Shown here: positions 448 to 24,528 of the stretch, one piece after another
How the letters are laid out: each line of letters opens with the position of its first letter
Numbering within the stretch: the stretch's first letter is position 1
Source: an uncultured Desulfosoma sp.
GTDB taxonomy: Bacteria; Desulfobacterota; Syntrophobacteria; Syntrophobacterales; DSM-9756
NCBI GenBank assembly: GCA_937960435.1
Contig: CALGPN010000029.1
Coordinates: 1 to 44,046, forward strand
Direction of reading: 5' to 3'
DNA length: 44,046 nucleotides
Notes under the pieces: generated by a model
The model's input: only the letters and a program-made list of their open reading frames with translations
Told to the model about the DNA's origin: nothing
Databases searched by the model: none
Program-made: the position numbers and the translations under genes

Positions 448-876
448 TCACCACGACTTTTCGGTCATGATCTTGCGCAGTTTTTCTTCGGTCTGTTTTT
501 CCACGAGAATCATCTTTGTGGCCTTGGCCTTCTTGATCTTTTCCGTCAGCACTTCCACGTCGGCGGGTTTTTCGAGAAAATCGGTGGCCCCCAGTTTCAT
601 CGCCTCAATGCCCTTGTCCAACGAGGCATAGCCGGTGAGCAAAATGACCTGCATCTCGGGACGCTTGGTCTTGATCAATTCCAGGGCCTGAATGCCGTCC
701 ATACCGGGCATTTTCAGGTCGAGAATGATGACGTCGTAAGAATCGGCCTCAACCTTTCCGATGGCTTCCTGGGCGGAAGTGCTGGTATCCACCTTCATGC
801 CTCGGTTGCGCATTCTTTCCGCCAAGGTTTCCACGAACTCCACTTCGTCGTCCACCAACAACACCCGTTCATTCAT
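448..876 (-). CDS. Single-domain response regulator (CheY-like receiver)
   Basis: A 142-aa stand-alone receiver domain that would accept phosphate from a histidine kinase. The acidic pair D9-D10, phospho-acceptor D53 (in ILDLKMPG), T81 and K103 are all present, so it should be phosphorylatable. A charged 30-residue tail follows (KATKMILVEKQTEEKLRK), and there is no DNA-binding output domain. The start at 876 is chosen because AAAGGAG lies 7 bases upstream of the ATG and the homologous fold begins at once; a longer frame reaching 978 adds only non-homologous residues. It is the last gene of the minus-strand signalling operon and is separated from the kinase-like gene before it by 98 bases. Its receiver closely resembles the receiver of the fusion protein at 3904-5124 (DLKMPGxDGI, LLTGxxS). 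Confidence 0.9.
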   Translation of the reverse strand: MNERVLLVDDEVEFVETLAERMRNRGMKVDTSTSAQEAIGKVEADSYDVIILDLKMPGMDGIQALELIKTKRPEMQVILLTGYASLDKGIEAMKLGATDFLEKPADVEVLTEKIKKAKATKMILVEKQTEEKLRKIMTEKSW

Positions 877-974: not shown

Positions 975-1631
975 TCACCGGCTGTGATGTTTGAGCCGCA
1001 GGATCAGAGTCCGCCCTTCCAGAGTGCGGGTTATTCCCAGGCGAGCGTCGAGGGCCGCCAGCACTTCCGGATTCGGGCCCGAGTCGGCCGGCTCCAGCCC
1101 TTCCTGTAACCCATCGATCAGGATCACTGTTTCAGGGCCCGATGTTTTGGCGCTCAGCACGAGGCTTTTCTCATGGCCGGCATGGGCCATGGCGAATTCC
1201 AGTCCGGTCCACACCGCCAGCTCAAGCATAAAGCGATTGGTCAGCACCGTTACCGGCGTCTCCGGTGCCTCGGCGCTAAGGCTCACCCCTTTCATAGAAG
1301 CAGGGCGTTGCCCCAAAGCCGCCATCAAACCGATCAGCTCGCCCACCTCCACCACCTCCATCGGCTCATCCACGCTGTGGGCAAAGCGGTTCATGTCCTT
1401 GACAATCACATCGGCCCGCCCAGTCTGTCGCCGCACGCGCTCGGCCAGTGTGGCCAATTTTTCCACGTCCAGCGGCATTCCCTTCCGATGCATCGCCAAC
1501 AGATCTTCCATGAGGCCGGTGCTTTCCCGAATGACCGCGAGAACGTTTTTAATCTCATGGGAAATGGAGGCCAAGATTCGGCCGAAAATTTGCAACCCGG
1601 CAGTCGCTACGGGATCGTGATCCGTCGTCAT
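975..1631 (-). CDS. Histidine-kinase-like protein with H-box but degenerate ATPase part
   Basis: A 218-aa protein whose N-terminal third is a HisKA-type dimerisation helix pair carrying the H-box SISHEIKNVLAVI, with H25 as the expected phosphorylated histidine. The second half (about 100-218) sits where a HATPase_c domain would be, but I cannot see an N-box asparagine, a DxGxG box or a GxGLGL box. It therefore probably cannot bind ATP and may act as a phosphotransfer intermediate or as a scaffold for the neighbouring kinase. There is no membrane segment, so it is cytoplasmic. Its ATG overlaps the stop of the preceding receiver gene by 4 bases (ATGA type), indicating translational coupling. 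The H-box identification is secure; the role is inferred. Confidence 0.75.
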   Translation of the reverse strand: MTTDHDPVATAGLQIFGRILASISHEIKNVLAVIRESTGLMEDLLAMHRKGMPLDVEKLATLAERVRRQTGRADVIVKDMNRFAHSVDEPMEVVEVGELIGLMAALGQRPASMKGVSLSAEAPETPVTVLTNRFMLELAVWTGLEFAMAHAGHEKSLVLSAKTSGPETVILIDGLQEGLEPADSGPNPEVLAALDARLGITRTLEGRTLILRLKHHSR

Positions 1632-2021: not shown

Positions 2022-3740
2022 TCAGCGCACAAGGGGCAGAGTGAAGGTGAAGGTGGTCCCCTTTCCCAATTGGCTTTCCACATGAATCTCGCCGCCAAGC
2101 TCCTTCACCAGTCCGTAGGTGATGGAAAGTCCCAGCCCCGTTCCACCGCGACTGCGTTTCGTGGTAAAAAAGGGTTCAAAGATCTTCTTGAGGTCCCCTT
2201 CCGCAATTCCGCAGCCATCGTCGGCCACGTCTATGGCCAGGACGCCATCTCGTCTGCGGACCCGGATGGCGATGTGCCCACCCTCGCTGACTGCGGCAAA
2301 GGCATTGTTCAAAAGATTGACCAACACCTGCTGAACCTTGCCGAGATCACTCTCGACCGCGGGAAGGTCGTCGGGCACCTCGGCCCTGAGTTCGATCGAC
2401 CGATAGCTCGCTTCCTTTTCGAAGAACCCTGCCACTTCGCCGATCACGTCCTTGATGTTGAACGTCTGAAGGGCCGGCGGGCCGCCCATGTGCCGGGCAA
2501 AGCCCAACAGTCGCCGAGTGATGGTCCCGCAGCGTTCCACTGATTTCAGGATGGAATCCACCAGGGCGAGCAGTTTTTCGTCGGCCGCATAATTTTCTTT
2601 CAACAGAAACAGATCCTTGATCAGCCCAGCCTTTTCGTTGATCACCGCCAGCGGATTGTTGATTTCATGGGCGACGCCCGCAGCCAATCGGCCGATGGAC
2701 GCCATCTTGTTTGAATATTCCACCTGGTGCAAGGTTGCGACACGCTTTTGGTCCGCATCATAGATTTGTGAAACCAGATAGGTCGTGCCCCAGAGGATCA
2801 CCACGATGATGGCGGCTACGCTCACCGTGAGGAACATAAGGATTTCCAGTTGGGCTTTTTTCCAAGACTGAAACAGTTCGCCCTTGCTTTTGCAAATCAT
2901 CAAAATGAAAGGCGTGTTTTCGATGTAGGCGTATCCGAGCACCAGAGGATTTTTCCCTGGGTCGACCGCGTCGATCACCTCGGAGCGTTCCGAATGTGGT
3001 GGTACCGGGAGGGGAATGGGATTGAGGACGGGGCCGAAGATGCGCGAGGGTGTCTGGAGGATGCCCGAGCGGTTGACGAGGAAGGCGTCGCCGTGGCCGG
3101 CGAGGTCGAGTTCGGCGAACAAGTGGTTGAATTTATCGGTGTCGATGGTGGCCCGGAGCACATAAGGCCGACCGGTAAGGCAACGGCAGTGAATGGCGAT
3201 GACGAAATGAGGCATCTGTCTCACCCCAAGGAACACATCGCTTACATAAATTCCCTCTTGAAGCACGTGCCGGTACCAATCTTCACCGCTGTAATCGATG
3301 CCCTCAAGCAGAAAGGGACCGGCGTAGGCGCGCTGGATTCCCTGTTCATCGATGACGCCGAGATCAATGAAACCGCCGAAGGCCCGTTTCAAATTCTCGA
3401 GAATCTGGGCCAAGCGCACCGGGTTCATGATGTCTTCCAAAAGGGTGTCCTCGATCACATAGGCCAGGGCCGATTTGCGCTCTTGCAAGAAAAAGCTCAC
3501 ACTGCGGCGCGTGTTCGAAACCAATCGGGCGGTGCGCAATTGAATGTCGCTCTCGATCGCTTTCCGACTCACTCGGTAGTCGATGGCGGCCATGAAAATC
3601 AACGGTGTCAGCGTCACCGTCAGGGTGAGAAAGACGGTTTGCTTCCATATGCGGCGGAAATTGAAAAGATGCTTGAAGGGACCCGCCGCCACATCTTCGT
3701 GGTCCCAGAAGTCAGGCTTGAAGATCGATTTCAGCCTCAT
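2022..3740 (-). CDS. Membrane sensor histidine kinase with Cache-type periplasmic domain
   Basis: A 572-aa kinase. Residues about 34-53 form the first membrane segment and 298-318 the second. The roughly 245 residues between them look like a double-Cache ligand-binding domain (IDYSGEDWYRHV, YVSDVFLG, PHFVIAI). A HisKA domain follows with H358 in GVAHEINNPLAVI, then a HATPase domain with N-box residues near 475-479, DDGCGI at 507-512, FEPFFTTK and GTGLGLSI at 533-540. All catalytic motifs are intact. It would sense a periplasmic small ligand and autophosphorylate, and the two small receivers and the fusion receiver nearby are likely partners. The start at 3740 has only a poor ribosome binding site. 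A 163-base gap separates it from the upstream fusion gene. The ligand is unknown; the linkage to a SulP transporter suggests an anion or carboxylate. Confidence 0.92.
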   Translation of the reverse strand: MRLKSIFKPDFWDHEDVAAGPFKHLFNFRRIWKQTVFLTLTVTLTPLIFMAAIDYRVSRKAIESDIQLRTARLVSNTRRSVSFFLQERKSALAYVIEDTLLEDIMNPVRLAQILENLKRAFGGFIDLGVIDEQGIQRAYAGPFLLEGIDYSGEDWYRHVLQEGIYVSDVFLGVRQMPHFVIAIHCRCLTGRPYVLRATIDTDKFNHLFAELDLAGHGDAFLVNRSGILQTPSRIFGPVLNPIPLPVPPHSERSEVIDAVDPGKNPLVLGYAYIENTPFILMICKSKGELFQSWKKAQLEILMFLTVSVAAIIVVILWGTTYLVSQIYDADQKRVATLHQVEYSNKMASIGRLAAGVAHEINNPLAVINEKAGLIKDLFLLKENYAADEKLLALVDSILKSVERCGTITRRLLGFARHMGGPPALQTFNIKDVIGEVAGFFEKEASYRSIELRAEVPDDLPAVESDLGKVQQVLVNLLNNAFAAVSEGGHIAIRVRRRDGVLAIDVADDGCGIAEGDLKKIFEPFFTTKRSRGGTGLGLSITYGLVKELGGEIHVESQLGKGTTFTFTLPLVR

Positions 3741-3903: not shown

Positions 3904-5124
3904 TCAATTTTCTTGCCGGCTCCTGATTCGGTCGTAGGCCCGGCGCAGGGTCTCGCTCAGCAGCTCGATGTCCACCGGTTTTTGCAGGTACGCGAAAGCC
4001 CCCAGCTCCATGCACTGCTTGCGGTCCTCTTCGCTGCCGTGACCGGTCAGGATAATCACTTCGATGTCCGGTCGGGTGCTCTTGACTCGACGCAGCACTT
4101 CGATGCCGTCGATCCCCGGCATTTTGAGGTCCAGGATCATGACTTCGGGTTCCTCTTCTTCAATCATGGTCAAGGCCGATTCTCCGTCATAGGCCACAGC
4201 GGAACCCATGTCGCGCATGATCAGGCGTTCCGAGAGAGTCTGAACGAATTCCCGCTCGTCATCGACCAGTAACACTTTGGAGGGCGTCTGAAAATCATAG
4301 CGGCGGTAAATATCGGCCTGATAGAAACCCTCTCCGACCTTGACGGTGACCCGGCGGACCCCAGGCACTTTCGCGGCGATGGCTTTGAGTTCCTCTTCCA
4401 AGCGGCTGAGGAGCAGCACGTGCTTGTTGATGGTCAGGAGGACCTCACCCCTTTCGGCGCGTACGCCGACACTATGGCCTTCCTTGGCGAGCGCCACCTC
4501 GACCTCGGCGGCGAGCAGAAAGTCCGCCGCCGCCTGCCGCGATTGAGCACTCGGCTGTAAAAGGGGCTTGTTCAGGTAGTCCCGAATCAAGGCCACCGCC
4601 TGTTCGGGCGTACTCTTATCGGTCGGCAAAACAATATCGTAAAGTTCCGCAGCCCAAGGGTCTTCTTTGCCGCGCACCTCCCGCACCCAGGCGGCACGCT
4701 CCTGGTCCTGAGCATGCAGAAGCTTCAGGGCTTCTCTTTCCTCCATTCCTTCCTGGGACCTGGCGACTTCCAGCCGGCTGCGGGTGTCGGCGATCAGGCA
4801 CACCCGAAGCACATGGCTGATGGTCGCCGGGACCAAATGGCTTGAAAAGCCGTAGATCAGGAGATGATCGGCGGAGAGCCGTTGGGCTAGGGCGAGTCGA
4901 AGGTAGGCAATGGACCGTTCCCTTTCATGGGTAAAGCGGTTGAACACCGAGGTCTTGCCGGTAAAGACTCGAGCGATGTTGGCTTCGCCCAAATTCGACA
5001 AGCGTGAGGCCTGGGCCACCAGTTCGGCGTCGGAAACGAGCTGGTAACCGGTCGCCGAAAGCAGGCCGCTGATGATCTGGTCGGCATTGCAAAAACTCCC
5101 ACTGAAGACACTGATAACGGCCAT
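3904..5124 (-). CDS. Cytidylate-kinase-like / BON-like / receiver fusion protein
   Basis: A 406-aa protein with three regions. Residues 1-185 resemble the cytidylate kinase-like (Cytidylate_kin2) family in their later motifs: LRVCLIADTRSRLE near 106-119, then a helix with QDQERAAWVREVRGKEDPW and LYDIVLPTD near 161-169. The N-terminal P-loop expected as GSGGREI is replaced by SGSFCNADQI, so nucleotide phosphorylation is doubtful. Residues 200-263 look like a BON-type fold (EVALAKEGHSVGVRAERGEV, VPGVRRVTVKVG). Residues 283-406 are a complete receiver with D288-D289, D332 and K382. GGAGG precedes the ATG at 5124 by 7 bases; a longer frame overlaps the sulP gene and adds no domain. It lies 22 bases downstream of the SulP gene. 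It could be a phosphorylation-gated partner of the transporter, but that is inference. Confidence 0.82.
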   Translation of the reverse strand: MAVISVFSGSFCNADQIISGLLSATGYQLVSDAELVAQASRLSNLGEANIARVFTGKTSVFNRFTHERERSIAYLRLALAQRLSADHLLIYGFSSHLVPATISHVLRVCLIADTRSRLEVARSQEGMEEREALKLLHAQDQERAAWVREVRGKEDPWAAELYDIVLPTDKSTPEQAVALIRDYLNKPLLQPSAQSRQAAADFLLAAEVEVALAKEGHSVGVRAERGEVLLTINKHVLLLSRLEEELKAIAAKVPGVRRVTVKVGEGFYQADIYRRYDFQTPSKVLLVDDEREFVQTLSERLIMRDMGSAVAYDGESALTMIEEEEPEVMILDLKMPGIDGIEVLRRVKSTRPDIEVIILTGHGSEEDRKQCMELGAFAYLQKPVDIELLSETLRRAYDRIRSRQEN

Positions 5125-5146: not shown

Positions 5147-7279
5147 TCAATTTTCGGCAAGCCGGCAGACCCGAACCAGCGGGCAGACCTGCTCGGCGCT
5201 TTCGCGATGGGTCCGGTCGTAAATGGCGGCAATCGCTTTTTCCATGGTCGGGAAAATGTGATCTTCCCCGATTTTTTCCCACAGATAGGTTCGCTTCAAC
5301 ACCCGCATCACCGCTTCGTTGACCCCGCTCAGTGACACATCGATGCCCGCGGCTCGGACCCGGTCGATCATGAGTGATAGCATTTCTTCCCCCGAGGCGT
5401 CGATATCGTTGATGCCGTTGGCAACGATCACAATATGCTTGAGATCTTTAGAATCTTGCATGCGTTCGGTGATCTTGTCCTCAAGATAGCTGGCGTTGGC
5501 AAAGAACAACGGGCCATCGAAACGGACCATGGCCACATAGCGGCACTCCCGCAGGCCGTGATCGCGGGCGCTGCGCAGCGCTCCGTCCTCGGTGCGGGCC
5601 AAGGTCACCACCTTTGGGCGCATGCTCTTGTAGAGGAATACCCCCAGCGACAGCACAACCCCGACCATGATCCCGCGGTCAAGGTGGGGAGCAAAAGCCA
5701 GGGTGCTGATGAAGCTGAGAATGGAGATCAGGCCGTCATACCATTGGGCCCTCCAGGCGTGGACGAACCCGGAGACGTTGAGCAGGCCCACCACCGCCAT
5801 CATGATGATGGCGGCCAAAACGGACTGAGGCAGGTGATAAAGCAGCGGAGTGAAAAAGAGCAACACGATGACCACGGCAAGGCTGGTAAACACGCTGGAC
5901 AAGCCGCTCACGGCGCCGGCCTGAAGGTTCACGGCAGACCGGGAAAAAGAGCCCGAGACAGGATAGCTTTGCCCTAGGGATCCCAAAACGTTGGCCAGGC
6001 CCTGGCCGATCAATTCCTGGTTCGGGTCCAGGCGCTGGCCGGTCTTCGCGGCCATGGCCTTGGCGATGGAAATGGCTTCCATAAAACCCAACAGCGAAAT
6101 GATGGCGGCAAACGGCAGCAGCCGAAGCATCACATTCAGCTCCAGCTTCGGCACACCGAAAGCCGGCAGCCCTCTGGGAATGTTGCCGACCACCGCGCCG
6201 CCCCCCATCATGCGAATGGCTTCGGGCTTGAGTGCCGAATTGCCTACGCGGATATGCCAGACCGCTCCCTGGGGTTTGACTTCCGGCGGCAGTCGGTCGG
6301 CCCGGTAAAAACGCCATCCATCGGCCCTTCCGTTCACGCCGTAAAATTTCAGGCGGCGCAGCGCCTCGCGCTGAACGTGCGCTTCCTCCTGCAATCGCTC
6401 CATCTTCATGGCGATCACCTCGACTCGGTGCTTGGCATCGAGCACCGCCAAGGGATCATGGTCCTTGCGGGCGGCCTCCAGGTCCCGATAGGCTTCTGTG
6501 CGCTGTTCGGCGAGTGCCGACATTGCTTTGACCGTTTCGTTGAAAGTGCCGATCATGTGCCGCGCCTCTTGATCCTGGATGGCTTCCAGCGGGACCTCCA
6601 CGTTCTTCTCGAAGCCGATCGCCCAAGAAATGGCCGTGGTGACCACCACCGCCACCAAGACGTTGGGAATCTTTGGGGAAATCCGACGCAGCCCGTACAT
6701 GATGACAAAAGCCAGGATGCCCATGGCCAGGGTCGGCCAATGGATGTAATGGGAAGCCGCCACCAACACGCGCACAATGGTCTCGTAATGATGCTCCGCA
6801 CTGTCCACGTAGACGCCGAACATTTTCGATAATTGCGACGTAGCGATGATGATGGCGGCGGCGTTAGTGAAACCGTTGACCACCGGGTGGGACAAAAAGT
6901 TGACCAGCAGCCCCAGGCGCAACAGACCCAGAAGGAATTGAAAGAGGCCGACGATGAACGCCAAAAGGATGGCGTAAGCGATGTAAGAGGGGCTGCCGGC
7001 GGTCGCCAGCGAGGCGAGGGAGGCGCTCGTCATGAGCGAGACCACGGCGACCGGCCCGGTGGCAAGCTGCCGGCTGGAACCGAACAGCGCCGCAATCATC
7101 GGCGGGAGGAAGGCCGCGTAGAGCCCGTAATACACCGGCAAGCCGGCCAGTTGGGCGTAGGCCATGGATTGGGGAATCAAGACCAGTGCCACCGTAATCC
7201 CGGCAACGAAATCCATCCGCAAATCGTTGAGCCGGTAACCCTTGAGCCAGACGATGAAAGGAAAAAACTTGGCAATCAT
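5147..7279 (-). CDS. SulP-family anion permease with coiled-coil insertion and STAS domain
   Basis: A 710-aa inner-membrane transporter of the SLC26/SulP family, which moves sulfate, bicarbonate or dicarboxylates. The N-terminal core has the family signatures (GITVALVLIPQSMAYAQLAG, GLYAAFLPP near 51-60, TGPVAVVSLM near 74-83), the second half has GQGLANVLGSLGQSYPVSGSF near 425-445, and a cytoplasmic STAS domain occupies about 570-700 (VRFDGPLFFANASYLED, IDASGEEML). Between the membrane helix ending near 222 and VGNIPRGLPAFGVP near 364-377 there are about 140 residues, where typical members have roughly 10-20. This insertion includes a heptad-rich helix (near 245-312) and a short domain. The gene overlaps the tetR stop by 4 bases. 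Substrate cannot be read from sequence; sulfate is plausible given the sulfate-reducer context. Confidence 0.9.
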   Translation of the reverse strand: MIAKFFPFIVWLKGYRLNDLRMDFVAGITVALVLIPQSMAYAQLAGLPVYYGLYAAFLPPMIAALFGSSRQLATGPVAVVSLMTSASLASLATAGSPSYIAYAILLAFIVGLFQFLLGLLRLGLLVNFLSHPVVNGFTNAAAIIIATSQLSKMFGVYVDSAEHHYETIVRVLVAASHYIHWPTLAMGILAFVIMYGLRRISPKIPNVLVAVVVTTAISWAIGFEKNVEVPLEAIQDQEARHMIGTFNETVKAMSALAEQRTEAYRDLEAARKDHDPLAVLDAKHRVEVIAMKMERLQEEAHVQREALRRLKFYGVNGRADGWRFYRADRLPPEVKPQGAVWHIRVGNSALKPEAIRMMGGGAVVGNIPRGLPAFGVPKLELNVMLRLLPFAAIISLLGFMEAISIAKAMAAKTGQRLDPNQELIGQGLANVLGSLGQSYPVSGSFSRSAVNLQAGAVSGLSSVFTSLAVVIVLLFFTPLLYHLPQSVLAAIIMMAVVGLLNVSGFVHAWRAQWYDGLISILSFISTLAFAPHLDRGIMVGVVLSLGVFLYKSMRPKVVTLARTEDGALRSARDHGLRECRYVAMVRFDGPLFFANASYLEDKITERMQDSKDLKHIVIVANGINDIDASGEEMLSLMIDRVRAAGIDVSLSGVNEAVMRVLKRTYLWEKIGEDHIFPTMEKAIAAIYDRTHRESAEQVCPLVRVCRLAEN

Positions 7280-7881
7280 GACCCGCTGTGACCCTCCGTC
7301 GTGAGTGGTTGAAACATCCGCGTGCTCATGGCGAGCAATTCCGCGACCAGCGCCGAAGCCTCGTAAAGCCGGTAATTTTTGAGCCGGACCACGCCGTCGA
7401 CCATGGTGAACAAGATCAGTGCGGCCTTGCGCGAGGGAACGTCAATGATGGAGCCGTCGCTTTGCCCCTGCAGCACCACCTGCTCGAAAACATCCACCAG
7501 ACAGTTATAAATGTCCACCAAGTGGCTTCGATACTCGCTGTTGGTTTCGGCCAGCCGGTAGAGGTAATGATTTTGCAGGAGCAAAAACTGGCTTTCCATC
7601 TTGCCCGCCAGATAGAGATAAAAGAGCAGGACGTCCTGAATTTGATCCAACCCCTTCATCGCCGGGCGATTCTTCCGATAGTGTTCGACCTCACGGACAA
7701 TGGTGTCCTTGATTTGCTTCAAGATCGCCAGAAGCAGGTCTTCCTTGCTCTTGAAATGGTAGAAGATGGTGCCTTCGGCGACGCCGGTGGCGCCGGCGAG
7801 TTCGGCGATGGAAGTGTTGGTGAACCCTTTTTCGGCGAACAACCGTGTTGCGGCATCGAGGATGGCCTCTCTACGGGTCAT
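7276..7881 (-). CDS. TetR/AcrR-family transcriptional regulator
   Basis: A 201-aa repressor-type protein. The N-terminal helix-turn-helix (residues about 3-50) has the usual TetR signature: ILDAATRLFAEKGF, then TSIAELAGATGVAEGTIFYHFKSKEDLL. The remaining 150 residues are the helical ligand-binding and dimerisation part, with no recognisable specificity signature. It is the first gene of the minus-strand operon and overlaps the SulP start by 4 bases, so it likely governs expression of the transporter and signalling genes. A perfect 14-base palindrome 25 bases before its start is the probable operator. This class often responds to acyl-CoA or toxic organics, but the effector here is unknown. 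Confidence 0.93.
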   Translation of the reverse strand: MTRREAILDAATRLFAEKGFTNTSIAELAGATGVAEGTIFYHFKSKEDLLLAILKQIKDTIVREVEHYRKNRPAMKGLDQIQDVLLFYLYLAGKMESQFLLLQNHYLYRLAETNSEYRSHLVDIYNCLVDVFEQVVLQGQSDGSIIDVPSRKAALILFTMVDGVVRLKNYRLYEASALVAELLAMSTRMFQPLTTEGHSGS

Positions 7882-7905: not shown

Positions 7906-7919
7906 ACTGAGTACTCAGT
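7906..7919. promoter_or_regulatory. Palindromic TetR-type operator
   Basis: The 14-base sequence ACTGAGTACTCAGT is a perfect palindrome starting 25 bases upstream of the tetR ATG. Its size, dyad symmetry and location match operators of TetR-family repressors, so autoregulation of the whole minus-strand operon is likely. The binding itself is inferred. Confidence 0.7.
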
Positions 7920-8256: not shown

Positions 8257-11200
8257 TCACGCCACCGGTTCCAAATGGGAGACGGCAAGGTTCACGGCAC
8301 CGAAGGATTCCTCGACCGTTCCCCGGAGAGCATAGGGCCGTTCCCAGCCCAAGGTTTGGCAAAAACGGCGGTAGGCGTCGGGGAAAAAAACCGTTTCGTA
8401 AATGGCCGTCTCGTCTTCGAAAGAAACAAACGCCATGGGATCCCCTTCCCGAGTGACCACCTCTTTGCGGGTGATGGGCCAGCCTTTGAGCCACACCGTT
8501 TCCCCCACAAGACGGGGCATGTCCGCGGCGCGCACCCACGGCCGAGGGCGCTTGCGGTAGGCGGCTTCGTCACAAGCCAGGGGATGCGCGGACAAAACAA
8601 AGCCCAAGGCTTCTTGCTCGTGACGCCACAAGAGCGTGGCGTCCGGAACCGGTAAAGCCGGCACAGGAACTGTGTCGGATCCTCGTTCCAAAAGATTGTT
8701 TTTCGCCCCAAGCTTCCCCTGTGTTTTCCCAAAACCCCGTGCCCGCCCCCTCGTCGAGGCGATATGCCGGACACCTTTGTCTCCGGGCTCGGTGCACCGG
8801 GCGTGAATCCACCACAGGAGCTGGGCCCGGTGGAATGCCCCGGCCAGGCCGTCCAACGCCCCGCTTTTGGCCAAGACCACCGCATCCGACGGCAGCAAAG
8901 CCACCCGTGTCCAAAGATCGTCCAACGACGCAAAAGGGCCGTTTCGGGAGCGCTCTTCCAGCAACCGTTCTACGGCTTCACGCCGAATGCCCCGTAGAAG
9001 CTGGAGCCCCAGCCGGATCTTCCGCCCTTTGCCCCAACACTTCCAACGACTCTCGTTCACATCGGGCCCAAGCACTTTCAACCCCATGCGCCGCGCCTCG
9101 GAAACATAGGCGAAGGCCGTGTAGTAGCCACCTCCGTTGGCGATGACCGCGGCCATGAATTCGGCAGGATAATGAACCTTGAGCCACGCCGATTTGAAGC
9201 TCACCAAGGCGTACGAGGCGGAATGGGGCTTACAAAACGAATAGCCGGCAAAGGACGTGAACATATCCCAAACCGCTCCGATGACGTCCTCGCCGACTCC
9301 CCGAGCCCGACAGCCGTCCTCGAAACGGCGCCGATAATCTTCGATCTGTTCCCGGCTTTTCTTGCTCAACACCTTGCGCAGCCCGTCCGCTTCCGCCCAG
9401 GAGAAGCCGGCCAGAGCCATGGCGCACAGAACCACGTGTTCCTGGTAAACCAAGATGCCGTAGGTTTCTTCCAGAAGGTCTTTTAAAGCGGGGTGGAACG
9501 GTTCGTAAGGCTTTCCATGGAGCCGTTCGATATAGGCGTGGATGTAACGGTTGGCGGCGGGCCGAATGATGGAGGAATGGATCACGAGATGCTCGAAATC
9601 GCCCCGGCAGGTCTTTTGTTGGAGCTGGCGCATGGCGGGCGATTCCACGTAGAAGACGCCCATGGTGTCGCCTCGAGCCAGCAGGGACTGGGTTTGGGGG
9701 TCATCCAGCGGGTTCAGGGAGGCGTAATCCATCCGGCGGCCCGTGTTTTCCTCAACCATGGTCAAAGCGTCCCGGATCACGCCCAGAGAGCGGTTTCCCA
9801 AAAGGTCGATTTTGACCAGCCCCCCTTCTTCCGCCTGATCCTTTTCCCACTGGATAATCCGCACCCCCTTGGCCGCCCGTTCCACCGGCACCCGGCGATC
9901 CACCCGATCCGGGGCGAGGACCATGCCGCCGCAATGCACCGAAAGATGCCGAGGAAGCCCTTCCAGCCGCGCGGCCAGTTCAAGAATTTCCGGCCACGGC
10001 GGGTCCAAAGGAAAGCCGCGAAACGCCGGGTGGGATCGAATCCGTTCCCCGATGCGTTCCGGTCGCGTCCAGCCGCTCAACCGCCGCGTCACTTCCGCGA
10101 TGTCGGCGGCGGACATTCCGTATACCTTGGCCGTTTCCCGCACCGCCGCCCGGGCGCCGAAACCCACGTGGTTGGCCACCATGGCGAACCGGTGCGACCC
10201 GTAGAGTCGTTCCACTTCTTCCAAGAGAAGATCCCGCTCGTCCCAGGGGAAGTCCACGTCGATGTCCGGGTGGTCCATGCGATGCGGGTTGAGGAATCGC
10301 TCGAAAACCAGCCGGTGCCGGATGGGATCCACATGGGTGATCCCCAAAAGGTAGCTCACCAGGCTCGCGGCGGCGCTCCCTCGGCCGCAATGGATGGGAC
10401 GACGGCCGACGATGTCGGCCACCACGAGGAAATAATCCACATAGCCCTTGGCGTGAATGAGTTCCAGTTCCACCGCCAGGCGCTTTTCCAACTCGGGAAA
10501 GCTTCGCCCGTAGCGCCGGACAATTCCTTCCCGGCAGCGTCGGACCAACTCATCGAAGCGATCTCCGGGACCGTCCCCGTAATGGGGGAAAACGGTTTCA
10601 AAACGCCCCCAATCCGCAAAGCACCCGCGCATGAGCGCTTCCCCACGGGCGACGGCGTCGGGACAGTGGGGGAAATGGCGTTCGGCATCTTGGGGCGGCT
10701 TCAGGAACGCTTCGGGCGATGCCAGTTCCCGGGGATCCAGGGTGCTCAAGGTGCTGTTGGTGTCAATGGCCCGAACGAGCCGGTGCAGGGAAAAATCTTC
10801 GGGATCGGCAAAATAGACGGGATGAAGGGCCACCGGAGGAATCCCCAGTTCCCGAGCCAGGCGCAAAGCTTTCCGCCCGACAGGTCCGGCAACGACGCCG
10901 ACATAGGTTTCCACCTTTGAAGAAACAGCCTGAAGAAAGCCGGCGTCGGCACTGATCACCGCCACGTGGGATCCCGCGTCGGGAAAATCCTTTTCCAGAG
11001 AGAAAGAGGGGTCCAGATGTCTCCGAGACACCCAAGGGCAAAGGATTTCGTAACCCTTCGGGTCTTTGGCGACGGCGATCACATGCCGTCCTTCATGTTC
11101 CAGATGCACGCCCACAACCGGAGCGACCCCGAAACGGCGGGCGGCGGCAAGGAAGCGCACCAGGCCGTAAAATCCGTTCCGGTCGGCGCACAAAACGGCC

Positions 11201-11292
11201 GTGTGGCCCCGTTCGGCCGCTCTTCGGCATAACGCTTCCGGGGAACTCGCCCCCCTCATGAAGGAATAAAACGTATGGACCACGCACAGCAT
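8257..11292 (-). CDS. dnaE2: Error-prone DNA polymerase III alpha subunit (DnaE2/ImuC type)
   Basis: A 1011-aa C-family DNA polymerase. The polymerase core motifs are clear: GRGSAAASLVSYLLGIT at 303-319, PDIDVDF at 342-348 with catalytic D343 and D345, and VKIDLLGNRSLGVI later in the palm. The C-terminus holds helix-hairpin and OB-type regions (VWLKGWPITRKEVVTREGDPMAFVSFED). The N-terminal PHP domain is eroded: where replicative DnaE has HxHSxYSLLDG this protein has VVHTFYSFMRG, missing one histidine and the aspartate. That erosion and the shortness compared with replicative DnaE (about 1160 aa) fit the DnaE2/ImuC class, which performs translesion synthesis. It follows imuB by 90 bases. The ATG has no good ribosome binding site; a GTG three codons later is an alternative start. 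Confidence 0.9.
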   Translation of the reverse strand: MLCVVHTFYSFMRGASSPEALCRRAAERGHTAVLCADRNGFYGLVRFLAAARRFGVAPVVGVHLEHEGRHVIAVAKDPKGYEILCPWVSRRHLDPSFSLEKDFPDAGSHVAVISADAGFLQAVSSKVETYVGVVAGPVGRKALRLARELGIPPVALHPVYFADPEDFSLHRLVRAIDTNSTLSTLDPRELASPEAFLKPPQDAERHFPHCPDAVARGEALMRGCFADWGRFETVFPHYGDGPGDRFDELVRRCREGIVRRYGRSFPELEKRLAVELELIHAKGYVDYFLVVADIVGRRPIHCGRGSAAASLVSYLLGITHVDPIRHRLVFERFLNPHRMDHPDIDVDFPWDERDLLLEEVERLYGSHRFAMVANHVGFGARAAVRETAKVYGMSAADIAEVTRRLSGWTRPERIGERIRSHPAFRGFPLDPPWPEILELAARLEGLPRHLSVHCGGMVLAPDRVDRRVPVERAAKGVRIIQWEKDQAEEGGLVKIDLLGNRSLGVIRDALTMVEENTGRRMDYASLNPLDDPQTQSLLARGDTMGVFYVESPAMRQLQQKTCRGDFEHLVIHSSIIRPAANRYIHAYIERLHGKPYEPFHPALKDLLEETYGILVYQEHVVLCAMALAGFSWAEADGLRKVLSKKSREQIEDYRRRFEDGCRARGVGEDVIGAVWDMFTSFAGYSFCKPHSASYALVSFKSAWLKVHYPAEFMAAVIANGGGYYTAFAYVSEARRMGLKVLGPDVNESRWKCWGKGRKIRLGLQLLRGIRREAVERLLEERSRNGPFASLDDLWTRVALLPSDAVVLAKSGALDGLAGAFHRAQLLWWIHARCTEPGDKGVRHIASTRGRARGFGKTQGKLGAKNNLLERGSDTVPVPALPVPDATLLWRHEQEALGFVLSAHPLACDEAAYRKRPRPWVRAADMPRLVGETVWLKGWPITRKEVVTREGDPMAFVSFEDETAIYETVFFPDAYRRFCQTLGWERPYALRGTVEESFGAVNLAVSHLEPVA

Positions 11293-11382
11293 CGTTTGGA
11301 CTACGCCCCAAACCCCCAGAGGCCACAGAGAAAAACGCCTCGAGAAAAACTTCGCCGCCCTCTGCGCCTCCGCGGTGAACTC

Positions 11383-12567
11383 TCACGCCCCCTCTCCCGC
11401 ATGCCCGCAGATCGTCACGCCCCAGAAGACGGCTTGTCGGCCGTAACGGCGGCGCACCGCATCCAAGGCCGCCTGGATCCGCCGTTCCCGCCCTTCGGCC
11501 CATCCCGCCTCGGGAAACAGGGCCAGTTGCCGCAAAGGCACCCGAAACCGGCTCCAGGTGACGGCAATCCGGCGCACCGCCACGCGCCTTCGGATCACCG
11601 AACGGGCACAATCGCGGACCGTTTCGAAAAGGAGTCGATCCAAGACCTGCCCCATGGGCTTCACATCCCGGGCCACCTGGACCTCTACCCCGTCGGCGTA
11701 GCGCACTTCCACAAGAACTCTGCCGGGAATGCGGTTCCGGCGTCTCAATATCCATCCCCCCTCTTCTGTGAGATCGAACAGCAGGGCCTCGATCCGATCC
11801 CGATCGATCTCGTCCCGTTCCAAGTCGCGAACCAGCCGAAGGGTGGCCTCTTTCTCGAAAGGCACCACCGGAAGATCATCTTCGCCGCGGGCCAATCGAA
11901 GGAGCCGCGGGGCATGCCCCCCGAAAACGGGCAGGAGCTCCCCCGGGCTCAAGGCCGCTAGATCTCCCACCTTGCGGATGTTGAAATCCATGAGGCGCCC
12001 CGCCGTCTTAGCCCCCACACCGGGCAAGGCTTCCACGGAAAGCCCGTGGAGAAAGGTGCGTTCCCCGCCCGGAAACACCCAACTCACATCCCCCACCCCG
12101 ACACATTCGGCGGCCACCTGACTCACCAACTTGTTTCCCGCAAGGCCCGCCCGGGTCGCCAGACGATGCCGGTGCAAGAAATGCTCTTCCATGCGGCAGG
12201 CCGTGTCCGTCGCCGGACCCCATAGACGCCGGGTTCCCGAAAGATCGACGAAGTACCGACCTAAGGCGCCCCCTTCCACCAAAGGAGAAAAGGCCCCAAG
12301 ATCCCGCAGGAGGGTTTCATGGGCGTGCCGGTAGAAGGCTCGGTCGGGAGGCACCACCTGCAGGGCGCGGCAACGCCGCAGGGCCACGGCGCACGGCATT
12401 CCTTCGCGGATGCCTTCGCGCCGGGCCAAGGGGTTGAGCGCCAAAATCACCGCCCGCCCGCCGGGATCGGCCACCACCAAAGGGCGGCGCGCCCGGGACG
12501 GATCCCGCAGTCCTTCCAAGACCGCACAAAAATCCGGCACATGAAGATGCACTACCGCCCGTTCCAT
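11383..12567 (-). CDS. imuB: ImuB-like Y-family polymerase homologue, catalytically inactive
   Basis: A 394-aa Y-family (DinB/ImuB) protein. The fold is recognisable from VVHLHVPDFCAVLE at the N-terminus, YFVDLSGTRRLWG near 105-117, GLAGNKLVSQVAA near 141-153 and the helix-hairpin-helix LPGVGAKTAGRL. The metal-binding carboxylates are gone: the usual DMD reads HVP (9-11), and the SIDE motif reads ALGR (101-104). ImuB proteins are known to be inactive polymerases that tether DnaE2 to the sliding clamp, and a clamp-binding motif QLALF is present at 347-351. GGAAGG precedes the ATG by 7 bases. With the dnaE2 gene downstream it forms an ImuBC mutasome cassette. No imuA-like gene lies next to it. 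Confidence 0.82.
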   Translation of the reverse strand: MERAVVHLHVPDFCAVLEGLRDPSRARRPLVVADPGGRAVILALNPLARREGIREGMPCAVALRRCRALQVVPPDRAFYRHAHETLLRDLGAFSPLVEGGALGRYFVDLSGTRRLWGPATDTACRMEEHFLHRHRLATRAGLAGNKLVSQVAAECVGVGDVSWVFPGGERTFLHGLSVEALPGVGAKTAGRLMDFNIRKVGDLAALSPGELLPVFGGHAPRLLRLARGEDDLPVVPFEKEATLRLVRDLERDEIDRDRIEALLFDLTEEGGWILRRRNRIPGRVLVEVRYADGVEVQVARDVKPMGQVLDRLLFETVRDCARSVIRRRVAVRRIAVTWSRFRVPLRQLALFPEAGWAEGRERRIQAALDAVRRRYGRQAVFWGVTICGHAGEGA

Positions 12568-15840: not shown

Positions 15841-17058
15841 TTAGGCCTCGGCTTGGGCCGGTTCGGCTGCCGGGGCTTCCGCCGTTTGACCTTGCACTTC
15901 CGCAAAGTACTTTTCCTTCACCCCTTTGAGGTAGGCCGCTATAGGCCTGTAAGCCAAATGAGACCATTTGGAGAAAGGAACCTCCAGGACCAGCATGGGG
16001 ACGGCAATCATGAGGTGCAGGATGTACATGGCGTAGGTGGCGAAGGGGATGTCCAGAAGCCGCAGAATGTGTACCGAAATCCCTGTGATGACCGTGAGCT
16101 CTAAGAGCACCAGGAACATCCAGTCGGTCCCGTGGGAATTCTTATACGGTGCCTTGCTCTTCCTGAAACGGCCGATGAGGGCGTACGTGGCACCGATCAA
16201 AACGGCGATGGTCGCATAGTAGCCCAAAAGGCGGATGGGGTGGAACAAGGGATACTCGATGTCCCGCCCGAGGACCGGATCGAAAGGCCGTTGGAACCTG
16301 AGAGGTTCCCATGTCAGGCCCAAGACGGCCAAGCCGCCCGCCAGAAGCACCGCGACCAGGATGAAAGCGGTCGTGTAACCCGTCATCATCAGAAGGTGGA
16401 TGACCCACTGGGTACGGTCTTCACATTTGGCCCATCGCTTTTGTGTGAGGAAGTGGAGCACCAGCTCCTTGGCTTGGCTCGCGTAGATCCGAAGAGGAAT
16501 CTTGGTGAGAAGATCCCCCATGGTGAATTTGATGAACCGATACACGTTGGTCAAAAGGAAAAACGACAGGATGGAAGCCATGATCAAATCGGCGATTTCC
16601 ATCCCATGGGCCGGCCAGGCCTTTTCCAGGGAGGCGTGCTGCCAGTCAAATTCCCCATGGATGAGCAGCATGAGCACCCCGACGATAAGGCCGGTCACGA
16701 TTACGGCCATGATTTCAAACTTTTCCGAAGTGTAAAACTTCCTGGAGAATCCCGTCCAGTCGTATTGGCTGGTGAGATATCGGCGCAGGACCATCATGGT
16801 CTCGCCGGGATCGGCGCCGCGCGGGCAATTGTCCGAGCAGTTGCCGCAGTAGTAGCACAGCCACGGTTCCGAAGATTGGAGGAGTTTCTCCTTCAGACCC
16901 ATCTGGGCGTATTTGACGAGCTTACGCGGGAAAGGGGTGCCCGTTTCGGACAAGGGGCACACGGCGGTGCAGTTCCCGCAATGGAAGCACTTGCTCCCGT
17001 CTTTCATGCCGAAGTGCTTGAGATCCTTCATCAAATTTGGATCCACCTTGATACTCAT
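15841..17058 (-). CDS. qmoC: QmoC, membrane subunit of the quinone-interacting oxidoreductase
   Basis: A 405-aa fusion of a HdrC-like Fe-S part and a HdrE-like cytochrome b part. Two [4Fe-4S] motifs lie at the N-terminus: CFHCGNCTAVCP (C24, C27, C30, C34) and CYYCGNCSDNCP (C68, C71, C74, C78). Several membrane helices follow from about 115 to 365, with histidines suited to haem b ligation (for example in VIHLLMMTGY and ILHLMIAVP). QmoC takes electrons from menaquinol and passes them to QmoA/QmoB for APS reductase. The C-terminus ends in an Ala/Glu-rich tail. AGGAGG lies upstream of the ATG, and the gene follows qmoB by 41 bases. Length and domain order match QmoC of known sulfate reducers. 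Confidence 0.95.
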   Translation of the reverse strand: MSIKVDPNLMKDLKHFGMKDGSKCFHCGNCTAVCPLSETGTPFPRKLVKYAQMGLKEKLLQSSEPWLCYYCGNCSDNCPRGADPGETMMVLRRYLTSQYDWTGFSRKFYTSEKFEIMAVIVTGLIVGVLMLLIHGEFDWQHASLEKAWPAHGMEIADLIMASILSFFLLTNVYRFIKFTMGDLLTKIPLRIYASQAKELVLHFLTQKRWAKCEDRTQWVIHLLMMTGYTTAFILVAVLLAGGLAVLGLTWEPLRFQRPFDPVLGRDIEYPLFHPIRLLGYYATIAVLIGATYALIGRFRKSKAPYKNSHGTDWMFLVLLELTVITGISVHILRLLDIPFATYAMYILHLMIAVPMLVLEVPFSKWSHLAYRPIAAYLKGVKEKYFAEVQGQTAEAPAAEPAQAEA

Positions 17059-17099
17059 CCTCAGGCCTCCTCGCTTTGATCGTCCTTTGGGCGCACCGG

Positions 17100-19340
17100 T
17101 TAGAATCCCTTATAGGGGTTGGGCCCCACGCCTTCCAGGGTTTCCGCGAAATCATCCAAAATCTTGGGCAACTTGTCGTAGTCGGAAATGGCCACGGTTT
17201 CGAAACGCACACGGTCGGATTCCAACACGAGGCGGTCCAAGGTTTCTTTCACCTTGCTCAGACGGATGTTGGCCAGTTCCGATCCCTTGACGAAGTGGCA
17301 CTGATAATCGTCGCCGTATTTGCATCCGAGGAGCAGCACGCCGTCGATACCCTTGGACAGCGCGTCGGCGATGAAGATGAGGTTCATGGATCCCAGACAG
17401 CGCATGGGGATGACCCGCACCCAGGCGTTGTAGCTCATGCGGCGAAGCCCCGCCATGTCGAGGGCCGGATAGGCGTCGTTTTCGCACGCCAGGACCACGA
17501 TCCGAGGTTTTTCCTCGTCTTCTTCTGGCACTTCGATGGACTTGATCATTTCGCCGATCATGCCCACAGAGTAGTTCTTGAAGGAGATGATGCGTTCCGG
17601 GCATGCGCCCATGCACACGCCGCATCGGCGGCAGCGGGTCGGTTGCGGCAGGGGGTTGCCCTTTTCGTCTTCGTTGATGGCCCCGAAAGGACATTCTTCC
17701 GTGCACCGTTTGCACTGGGTGCAGCGCTGCATGAAGAATTCGGGGAAGCTCATGTCCCCGGCCCTGGGGTGCACGGCTTTGCCCTGGCTCACCATTTCCA
17801 CGCATTGGATAGCTTTCATGGCTGCGCCGGCCCCGTCCTCAAAAGCCGCCGCAACACCCATGGGGCGACGCACGCAACCCGCGGCATAGATGCCGGTCCG
17901 GCGGGTTTCGTAAGGGAAGCAGATGAAATGGGAATCGGGGAAGCCGTAGCGCAACCCGGGAAGTTCCGGTCCTTGGCGGTATTCCAGATTGAGGATGTCC
18001 GAAACCAGGATGGCGTCTTGAGGAACTTCCAGTTCCTCTTCTTCCTTCTTCTGTTCCGTCTCGCCCGCTCTCATGCGCGCCCGCACCTGGGCGTAGTCCT
18101 CGCCGAAGGCGGTGACCGGCACCATCCCTGTGGCCAATACGACCAGATCCAAATCCTCCAAGACCACCGTTTCCCCCAAAAGGTCGTCCAAGGCTTCCAC
18201 GGTGACCCCCGCCCCCGAGGCTTTGACCTGCGGGTCCTGGCAACGGATGAAGATCACGCCTTCTTCTTGAGCCCTTCGGTACAGGTCTTCCGCCTGCCCA
18301 GGGGTTCTCATTTCTTTGAACACAATGAACACATTGGCTTCGGGGCTGGTTTCCTTGATGAAAATGGCCTGCTTGAGGCTCGTCGTGCAGCATACGGACG
18401 AACAATAGGGGAGCTTTTCCGGATCGCGCTGTCCGGCACACTGCAGGAAAGCCACGTTGGCCAAAGCGCCGCCGTCACTGGGGCGTTTGGCGCCGCCGTT
18501 TTTGACCATCTCTTCAAATTGGACGTTGGTGATGACGTTGGGCGATTGACCGTATCCCAGCTTGGGGTCCAACTGAGCGGGATCATAAGGTTTCCAGCCG
18601 GCCGCCATAACGATGGCGCCCACTTTGTGTTCCTTGACGGCACCGCTCTGGGCGATGCTCACTTTGAACACCCCCGGGCCGCCCACGGTCTTTTCGATCT
18701 TGGCGCCCGTATAGACGGTGATGTTGCCGTCCTTGGAAACGTCCTGAACGAGGCTTTCCACGTCGTTGTCTTTGATGCCCTTATAGGGGAACGTGGCGAT
18801 TTTGGCCACTTTTCTCTGAAAACCGCCCAGTTCTTTTTCCCGTTCCACCAGCACGGCTTTGTACCCGGCCTTGGAGACCTCTTTGGCGGCCGTCAAACCG
18901 GCCACGCCGCCGCCAACGATCAAAATGTCTTTGGAAATCTCTTCTTCGGGCTTGTAGGGTTCCGGCGGGTCCATCTTGCCGATCTTCGCCGCTGAGATGC
19001 GCAAATAGTCTTCGGCCATCATCTGGGTGTCTTCATCTCCCGGCTTTTGGCTCCAGGCCACCTGTTCGCGGAGATTCACCCGGTCCACAAGGCAGCCGTC
19101 GAAGCGGAAGACGTCGTACATGACCCGAGGCGAACACGCGGCAATCATCAAGCAGTTGACACCCTCGTTTTGGATGTCCCCTTTCAGCATGGCGACGCCT
19201 TCCTGACCGCACAGGCACGGATGTGTCTTCACCAAGGCGGCCTTGCATTCCTTCTGGGCCACCTTGGACAGCTGTTCTATGTCCAGGGCATCGCCGATGC
19301 CGCATCCGGTACAGATATACGTGGCAAGCTTCTTATCCAT
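17100..19340 (-). CDS. qmoB: QmoB, HdrA/MvhD-like flavoprotein subunit
   Basis: A 746-aa HdrA-like flavoprotein fused to a MvhD-like domain. After an N-terminal cysteine-containing region (C10, C13, C42, C44) comes a FAD-binding Rossmann motif, IVGGGVAGLTAAKEV (GGGVAG at 143-148), and AGCVRRPMGVAAAFEDGAGAAMKAI as the distal FAD contact. Two ferredoxin-type [4Fe-4S] motifs follow: C540, C543, C546, C550 and C570, C573, C576, C580. The last 140 residues resemble MvhD, with cysteines C619, C648, C673 and C681 that could hold a [2Fe-2S] cluster. QmoB works in the cytoplasm beside QmoA and may take part in electron confurcation. The acidic linker near 420-440 (QKKEEEELE) is an added feature. It begins 4 bases after the qmoA stop. 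Confidence 0.95.
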   Translation of the reverse strand: MDKKLATYICTGCGIGDALDIEQLSKVAQKECKAALVKTHPCLCGQEGVAMLKGDIQNEGVNCLMIAACSPRVMYDVFRFDGCLVDRVNLREQVAWSQKPGDEDTQMMAEDYLRISAAKIGKMDPPEPYKPEEEISKDILIVGGGVAGLTAAKEVSKAGYKAVLVEREKELGGFQRKVAKIATFPYKGIKDNDVESLVQDVSKDGNITVYTGAKIEKTVGGPGVFKVSIAQSGAVKEHKVGAIVMAAGWKPYDPAQLDPKLGYGQSPNVITNVQFEEMVKNGGAKRPSDGGALANVAFLQCAGQRDPEKLPYCSSVCCTTSLKQAIFIKETSPEANVFIVFKEMRTPGQAEDLYRRAQEEGVIFIRCQDPQVKASGAGVTVEALDDLLGETVVLEDLDLVVLATGMVPVTAFGEDYAQVRARMRAGETEQKKEEEELEVPQDAILVSDILNLEYRQGPELPGLRYGFPDSHFICFPYETRRTGIYAAGCVRRPMGVAAAFEDGAGAAMKAIQCVEMVSQGKAVHPRAGDMSFPEFFMQRCTQCKRCTEECPFGAINEDEKGNPLPQPTRCRRCGVCMGACPERIISFKNYSVGMIGEMIKSIEVPEEDEEKPRIVVLACENDAYPALDMAGLRRMSYNAWVRVIPMRCLGSMNLIFIADALSKGIDGVLLLGCKYGDDYQCHFVKGSELANIRLSKVKETLDRLVLESDRVRFETVAISDYDKLPKILDDFAETLEGVGPNPYKGF

Positions 19341-19344
19341 TGAG

Positions 19345-20607: not shown

Positions 20608-20731
20608 GCTCATCCTCCTCGGTATATGAAAGATGTCCCGTGAACCCTCGAGAGCGTGGGCAGGGAGTGCCTCCGCGGAATGGGGCGCGCCGTGGTTCGA
20701 TCCGCAACCGGCTCGGGGCGCATCATGTGCA

Positions 20732-20760
20732 ACTATACACAAAGCGACCGGGAGGAGCAA
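20732..20760 (-). promoter_or_regulatory. Candidate qmoABC promoter
   Basis: On the minus strand TTGCTC (20760-20755) and TATAGT (20737-20732) are separated by 17 bases. The -10 element is close to consensus and the -35 is weak. Transcription would begin near 20725 and leave a leader of about 118 bases before qmoA. Confidence 0.4.
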
Positions 20761-24383: not shown

Positions 24384-24441
24384 CACCACCTCCAACATCG
24401 GCAGTTTCACTACATATTGAGCCATTATTTTTAGAAAACTC

Positions 24442-24463
24442 GGCGCCCCAAAATGACGGCGCC
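24442..24463 (-). terminator. Weak hairpin between the two porin genes
   Basis: Two GGCGCC hexamers (24442-24447 and 24458-24463) can pair around a 10-base loop, followed on the minus strand by GAGTTTTCT. It may partly terminate transcription after the first porin and so lower expression of the second. Confidence 0.35.
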
Positions 24464-24528
24464 CGGGAAGAGCGAATCCCCCCGGGCCCGTTCATTGCGT
24501 TACGCCTTAGGCGTCACAGGCATTTGCC

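Follow-up and report, generated by a model that had tools for sequence, protein, structure and literature searches.

A protein of the sulP operon in an uncultured Desulfosoma sp. that joins a cytidylate-kinase-like domain, a BON-like domain and a receiver

Sulfate respiration begins with sulfate uptake. A gene cluster described from Desulfosarcina variabilis and further sulfate-reducing bacteria encodes the transporter SulP alongside two-component systems and contains a TetR operator (PMC11887813, Sci Adv 2025). According to the part of that paper available to us, the sulP cluster is widespread among Desulfobacteraceae, its kinases are proposed to sense external sulfate, and sensing of intracellular APS or of energy status is speculated to occur through CBS proteins in the DASS cluster and through TetR in the SulP cluster. 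For SulP itself, the available text of a second paper (PMC5840216) sets out a group Ci in the sulfate clade, of about 710 residues with an insert of about 90.

Here we describe a further component of such an operon, a protein that joins a cytidylate-kinase-like, a BON-like and a receiver domain (CK-BON-REC), in a window of 44,046 nucleotides from an uncultured Desulfosoma sp., the window being the whole stretch of DNA that was analysed. The word 'cytidylate' is absent from the main text of PMC11887813 as available to us, although the gene may be drawn in its figures as a response regulator. Among open-licence full texts, no paper was found that combines a cytidylate-kinase-like protein with a response regulator or with Desulfo, and searches for PF13189, or for cytidylate kinase with BON, returned the DolP paper alone (PMC7806268), whose Table 1, in the portion available, lists no cluster that pairs the two; joining SulP to cytidylate kinase and two-component systems led to a single cyanobacterial genome paper. 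The sulP gene cluster is known; on these partial texts, its CK-BON-REC member seems undescribed.

The gene and its operon

The gene is read from the minus strand; the plus strand of 3904-5124 is broken by stop codons, and a GGAGG stretch precedes the start ATG at 5124. The operon runs in the order TetR, SulP, CK-BON-REC, Cache histidine kinase, receiver, HisKA-only protein, receiver, and comprises the following features, with the starts of RR1 and RR2 picked by eye as a methionine ahead of the receiver:

7906..7919, strand not applicable: perfect palindrome ACTGAGTACTCAGT, possible operator, upstream of tetR
7276..7881, minus: TetR-family repressor
5147..7279, minus: SulP anion (probably sulfate) transporter with STAS domain, 710 aa
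6200..6610, minus: insert of about 130 aa in SulP, residues 224-360
3904..5124, minus: CK-BON-REC gene, P0001, 406 aa (open reading frame and Pfam)
4567..5124, minus: PF13189 cytidylate-kinase-like domain, residues 1-186, without Walker A, GxGG or GR motif
5074..5103, minus: SGSFCNADQI, residues 8-17, at the position of the P-loop; Cys12 shared by all 37 core members
4333..4548, minus: BON-like domain, residues 193-264, predicted helix-strand-strand-helix-strand
3925..4278, minus: receiver domain, residues 283-400, phospho-acceptor D332
2022..3740, minus: dCache sensor histidine kinase, 572 aa
1628..2008, minus: stand-alone receiver RR1, no DNA-binding domain found
975..1631, minus: HisKA protein, 218 aa, no recognisable ATP-binding motifs, possible histidine phosphotransferase
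448..876, minus: stand-alone receiver RR2, no DNA-binding domain found

An earlier note on this DNA had described a cytidylate-kinase-like domain in the first 185 residues, a BON-like linker and an intact receiver within one protein next to an anion transporter, and this observation is confirmed; phosphorelay genes lie beside it as well. PF13189 matches residues 12-170 with 58.5 bits, against a Pfam cut-off of 28, which excludes a chance match; it is also matched at E <= 1 by all 43 aligned CK-BON-REC members, the window's included (best 7.4e-33). PF00072 matches residues 284-393 with 98.6 bits. The receiver residues D288, D289 and D332 are present in 30 of 30 aligned members, and T360 and K382 in all 29 that reach so far. 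These are the only two Pfam families above cut-off in P0001, no DNA-binding output domain being among them, and of the 25 NCBIfam models listed out of 103, all of which match via the receiver, none is over its cut-off.

RR1 and RR2 have no other Pfam domain over cut-off and, since Pfam finds a DNA-binding domain in none of the window operon's three receiver proteins, CK-BON-REC is best read as a regulator that does not bind DNA. The 218-residue HisKA protein matches HisKA alone, at 26.8 bits, just under the cut-off of 26.9. Its H box is kept in 21 of 21 aligned members and DxGxG is absent in 20 of the 21, a pattern expected of a histidine phosphotransferase; the 14 PDB sequences that it matches are all named sensor or histidine kinases or regulators, and none is named ChpT.

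How constant is this arrangement? SulP is the next gene upstream in 37 of the 47 CK-BON-REC loci where this can be decided, at -82 to 213 bases, distances measured on frames taken from the first possible start, so that small overlaps are not real; upstream of the other four of the 51 (L038, L053, L157 and L163) the contig end lies at or near the gene. On the downstream side the Cache kinase follows directly in 34 of 51 loci, at -37 to 274 bases, with the contig of L159-L162 ending within 1.6 kb downstream of the gene. SulP is absent beside the gene in 10 of the 47. Three of these (L055, L074 and L149) keep TetR, the kinase, the receivers and the HisKA protein, implying that the regulator may have other targets; L066-L069 have a DASS transporter downstream, and the others are L070, L071 and L076. 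In a control set of 20 single-domain PF13189 loci from the same phylum, SulP, DASS and CitMHS genes were found in none of the fetched flanks, several of which are cut by contig ends.

The palindrome ahead of tetR is perfect over 14 bp and lies 24 bases before the start codon. With one mismatch allowed, the 12-base core has a single occurrence across the window, where 0.03 would be expected. A palindrome CTGAnnnnTCAG is found near the TetR start in L040, L045, L047, L048 and L050, and GAGTACTC in L004; with palindromes in 7 of 24 loci examined, the window included, the perfect form is not general.

Elsewhere in the window, a DNA polymerase III alpha-like protein (1011 aa) adjoins an impB/mucB/samB-family protein (Pfam) at 8257-12567, a pair that we take to resemble the DnaE2-ImuB mutasome pair. 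Two adjacent outer-membrane porin-like genes lie at 23043-25899 (DESULF_POR1 model, below cut-off). The stretch 15841-20760, some 8 kb away from the sulP operon, encodes a QmoC-like protein (212.8 bits, cut-off 300) and two HdrA-like proteins below cut-offs, which together perhaps form a Qmo-like complex.

Distribution of the family and its neighbouring permeases

A search with residues 1-289 of P0001 found matches at E <= 1e-5 in 130 of 395 genomes of the phylum. Matches reaching query residue 288 or 289 with at least 164.8 bits were called CK-BON-REC; the next hit has 135.1 bits, and below this gap the open frames are mostly of 260-335 aa, with a match that ends before the receiver, as for a CK-BON protein without one. 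The three-part protein defined in this way occupies 51 places in 49 of the 395 genomes, which rules out a sequencing or frame artefact. CK-BON-REC is not peculiar to the window genome, and our confidence in the family and its operon is high. The window genome has three PF13189 hits, comprising CK-BON-REC, a single-domain gene and a third that is read as a canonical cytidylate kinase because of its GPAGSGKST loop.

For alignment we used 43 of the 51 proteins, the window's included, as seven were not among the fetched loci and L034 was omitted for unread bases. A quick tree built from 92 kinase-like domains separates these 43 from the rest by a branch with SH-aLRT support of 98, and two receiver-less types, a and b, have support of 91 and 100, respectively. 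The simplest reading of the tree is that one receiver fusion gave rise to CK-BON-REC.

Beyond the search of the phylum, an exact-pattern scan of genome contigs yielded L004, a relative of full length, and two matches confined to the receiver; viral contigs, scanned with the alignment of the kinase part, gave one match, a 467-aa frame judged by eye to be unrelated; and among 3015 plasmid records none covers 80% of the query, the five matches listed falling in its receiver end. The gene dsrA is over cut-off in 46 of the 49 carrier genomes and in 142 of the 346 others (Fisher p 2.7e-13, kinship uncorrected), an association that is confounded by shared ancestry. Of the three remaining carriers, G043 and the incomplete G078 gave no match and the incomplete G042 a weak one.

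Receiver-less CK-BON genes of types a and b, where they occur as tandem pairs, stand directly behind a CitMHS-TrkA_C permease in all nine fetched pair loci (L058, L059, L060, L063, L064, L072, L134, L136 and L140; Pfam check of two), a count made with DASS and CitMHS profiles that were built partly from the counted loci, six of the nine having given sequences. A UspA-like protein often accompanies these pairs, and in six pairs examined a receiver follows in six and a histidine kinase in four. A DASS transporter is nearby in four of the six outer members of CK-BON-REC, and six core loci (L037, L038, L039, L046, L049 and L056) also contain DASS genes within the sequence fetched. Unpaired receiver-less CK-BON genes (>300 bits) have none of SulP, DASS and CitMHS nearby in 13 of 15 cases, the exceptions being L057, which has SulP, and L039, which adjoins a SulP operon. 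Six more distant receiver-less loci gave one weak CitMHS hit.

In four loci from two genera, SulP-STAS itself carries a C-terminal receiver, giving proteins of 845-864 aa (Pfam check of two):

L073:6755-9292: SulP-STAS-receiver fusion
L146:4947-7481: SulP-STAS-receiver fusion
L158:10042-12633: SulP-STAS-receiver fusion
L159:5189-7771: SulP-STAS-receiver fusion

After each other, the nearest relatives of these four receivers are CK-BON-REC receivers (among the best ten matches of each); a receiver of the CK-BON-REC kind is here joined to SulP in cis.

The insert of about 130 residues is present in the 11 operon SulPs aligned and missing from the SulP of L057. The known topology of SulP places the insert between TM7 and TM8, so that it may be periplasmic and could there contact the kinase's Cache domain. 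Among solved structures the best match of the window SulP is the chloroplastic sulfate transporter 4.1 (E 2e-99). Likeness to group Ci was judged by length, insert and PDB relatives. The PDB ranking and the group Ci size make bicarbonate the less likely cargo.

The kinase-like and BON-like domains

The earlier note singled out the replacement of the P-loop by SGSFCNADQI. The motif is indeed absent, but its loss is not distinctive. Walker A (GxxxxGK[ST]) is found in none of the 37 core and six outer CK-BON-REC members aligned, in none of 21 type a, seven type b and two other receiver-less proteins, and in none of 19 single-domain PF13189 proteins, a sample of high-scoring hits from one phylum; it is present in the one canonical kinase aligned. 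Since the full motif is missing from all 92 sampled PF13189 domains, its loss is not special to CK-BON-REC and is ruled out as the key trait of the protein. The GxGG loop, by comparison, is kept in 15 of the 19 single-domain proteins and in none of the 43 CK-BON-REC members, so that the check proposed in the note, whether relatives keep the P-loop, comes out negative for core and outer members alike. The GR arginine at column 93, which we take to have a role in CMP kinase, is present in 17 of 19 single-domain proteins, against 0 of 43 CK-BON-REC and 0 of 28 type a and b proteins. The shorter pattern GxxxxGK, without the S/T, is seen in 15 of 21 type a and 0 of 7 type b proteins, and GxxxxG[KR] in one of the 37 core members. 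Position 15 is acidic in 25 and basic in one of the 37 core members, acidic in two and basic in two of the six outer ones, and K or R in 19 of 21 type a proteins.

Other positions are strongly kept. All 43 aligned members keep F61, E67, G92, R117 and D163, and the conservation of D140 and Y162-D163 is full or nearly full. The note's claim that the later motifs of the family survive is thus upheld for R117, D140 and Y162-D163; the GR arginine has disappeared, and the clade does not conserve the LID arginine. Core members also share Cys12 (37/37), Cys109 (35/37), W146 (37/37) and W157 (37/37). Both cysteines are missing from the six outer members and from all 30 receiver-less proteins sampled, and Cys371, in the receiver, is present in all 29 CK-BON-REC members that reach that position.

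Among solved structures the family profile matches 3fdi (E 2.8e-9) and 3hdt (E 1.6e-8) essentially over the C-terminal half; an extra stretch at 14-48 in the match to 3hdt is worth just 2.7 bits, and the hit ranked third (E 0.0087) is to a protein unrelated to these. A profile of the receiver-less proteins aligns to 3fdi across the whole kinase part, implying that the N-terminal, phosphate-binding half is the part of CK-BON-REC that has diverged. AlphaFold2 models, made from an input of two sequences (window and L004), were set aside as a judge of the kinase fold, their mean pLDDT being 50 for the whole protein and 45 for residues 1-282.

The domain does not behave as the nucleotide-kinase relic that the note had envisaged. 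For the kinase-like part dN/dS is 0.07-0.16 in six pairs (Nei-Gojobori; dS > 1 in three), which with the invariant residues rules out a degrading relic; judged by these ratios, this part is under purifying selection. We hold with fairly high confidence that it is non-catalytic, as far as the missing motifs can tell. The suggestion that it senses or binds a nucleotide is not supported: with GxGG and the GR arginine both lost, and with a mostly acidic position 15 in the core, nucleotide binding by the pocket would not be favoured by the residues that are conserved.

For the middle region, the note's linker at about 200-263 can be placed at residues 193-264. PF04972 (BON) scores 15.9 bits on the window protein, under its cut-off of 27, and is matched at E <= 1 by 27 of the 43 members (best 9e-5). 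Against the PDB, the family profile of this region finds YraP/DolP (E 0.0018) and OsmY (E 0.08), and the receiver-less profile finds OsmY at E 4.8e-5. Both AlphaFold2 models, at low confidence, give the region a helix-strand-strand-helix-strand topology; Foldseek on the low-confidence model, used here for the BON region alone, ranks DolP and OsmY first and second (probability 1.00, E 0.036 and 0.038), with no hit at E <= 0.001. The receiver fusion leads us to infer that this BON domain is probably cytoplasmic.

Proposed role, rival readings and relation to known systems

What might a receiver control, when it is joined neither to a DNA-binding domain nor, apparently, to an active enzyme? We propose, with belief and doubt about equally weighted, that CK-BON-REC is a phosphorylation-switched regulator that acts not on DNA but on SulP, with CK-BON as its effector. 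The Cache histidine kinase would sense an extracellular signal, perhaps sulfate; phosphate would pass to D332 by way of RR1, RR2 and the HisKA protein that lacks ATP-binding motifs, a route suggested by their motifs; and the phosphorylation state of D332 would alter the contact of CK-BON with the cytoplasmic side of SulP, at its STAS domain, so tuning import post-translationally. TetR would govern transcription separately. This response regulator would have as its output a BON-like domain and a domain of kinase fold in which the known catalytic motifs are missing.

In favour of this reading are the place of SulP next upstream in most loci, set against its absence from the control loci; the likeness of SulP-fused receivers to those of CK-BON-REC; the lack of a DNA-binding domain in the operon's three receiver proteins; the occurrence of dsrA in carriers; the match of SulP to sulfate transporter 4.1 and its likeness to group Ci; the low dN/dS of the kinase-like part; and the receiver-less pairs behind CitMHS-TrkA_C and the DASS genes near outer members. 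The mechanism is weakened by the loci without SulP, by the unpaired receiver-less genes that lack all three permeases and by a family profile that meets the solved PF13189 proteins essentially over the C-terminal half, and we put its SulP-targeting part at about one half. A broader view, which we advance tentatively and with somewhat more doubt than belief, is that CK-BON serves anion permeases in general as a regulatory cartridge, having been attached to at least three transporter types (SulP, DASS and CitMHS-TrkA_C); the receiver would have been fused on a single time, in the SulP line, and at times passed on to SulP itself, so that a catalytically dead kinase fold would give phosphorelay control of sulfate import.

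A rather unlikely alternative is that CK-BON is an intracellular, receiver-gated nucleotide sensor that binds, without catalysis, a sulfate-reduction nucleotide such as APS, AMP or ATP. The retention of R117 in 43 of 43 members, with D140 and Y162-D163, would suit such a pocket, as would the speculation on intracellular APS or energy-status sensing in the accessible text of PMC11887813; the loss of GxGG and the GR arginine, the mostly acidic loop and the many invariant or nearly invariant residues elsewhere (F61, E67, W146, W157 and, in the core, Cys12) argue against it. The same losses make it extremely improbable that the protein is an active enzyme whose site is unusual, be it a nucleotide kinase or another phosphotransferase, even though PF13189 activity cannot be judged by Walker A alone, given that the sampled domains lack the full motif group-wide and most single-domain ones keep GxGG.

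Two further readings set the pocket aside. CK-BON might be merely a dimerisation or docking scaffold, with the whole protein serving as a phosphate store or relay intermediate in a three-receiver HisKA phosphorelay; the operon does have more receivers than kinases, and its HisKA protein has the motifs of a phosphotransferase. Receiver-less CK-BON pairs behind another permease imply, however, that CK-BON has a role of its own, and we consider this scaffold unlikely. The conservation of Cys12 and Cys109 in the core, and of Cys371 in the receiver, would be expected if a redox or sulfide switch coupled redox state to output, but the first two are missing from the outer and receiver-less members and their conservation may be structural, so that such a switch seems very improbable. 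The regulator of SulP proposed above remains our preferred reading. As a conserved, non-DNA-binding regulator in an importer operon, CK-BON-REC is a candidate for fast post-translational control of sulfate uptake, which is absent from the published cluster model in the available text of PMC11887813. If the proposal is true, a kinase fold without catalytic motifs serves as a response-regulator output, a combination that was not found in open-licence full texts.

Finally, the locus can be set against the systems that it most resembles. The window operon shares SulP, a Cache histidine kinase and TetR with an upstream palindrome with the sulP cluster of Desulfobacteraceae, as given in the part of PMC11887813 available to us; the regulators of that cluster are termed WalR type and drawn binding promoters, whereas the three receiver proteins of the window are without a DNA-binding domain. 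The window SulP has the length of the group Ci proteins in the accessible part of PMC5840216, about 710 residues, and likewise an insert, of about 130 residues compared with about 90. The solved members of PF13189, 3fdi ('uncharacterized protein') and 3hdt ('putative kinase'), are matched by the C-terminal half of the family profile; CK-BON-REC differs from them in lacking GxGG and the GR arginine and in adding BON-like and receiver domains and invariant residues of its own. Its middle domain is like DolP/YraP, OsmY, BonA and Kbp in the topology that low-confidence models predict, with DolP and OsmY as top Foldseek hits at E above 0.03 and a weak match in sequence; in contrast to these proteins, the BON domain of CK-BON-REC is probably cytoplasmic and follows a kinase-like domain.
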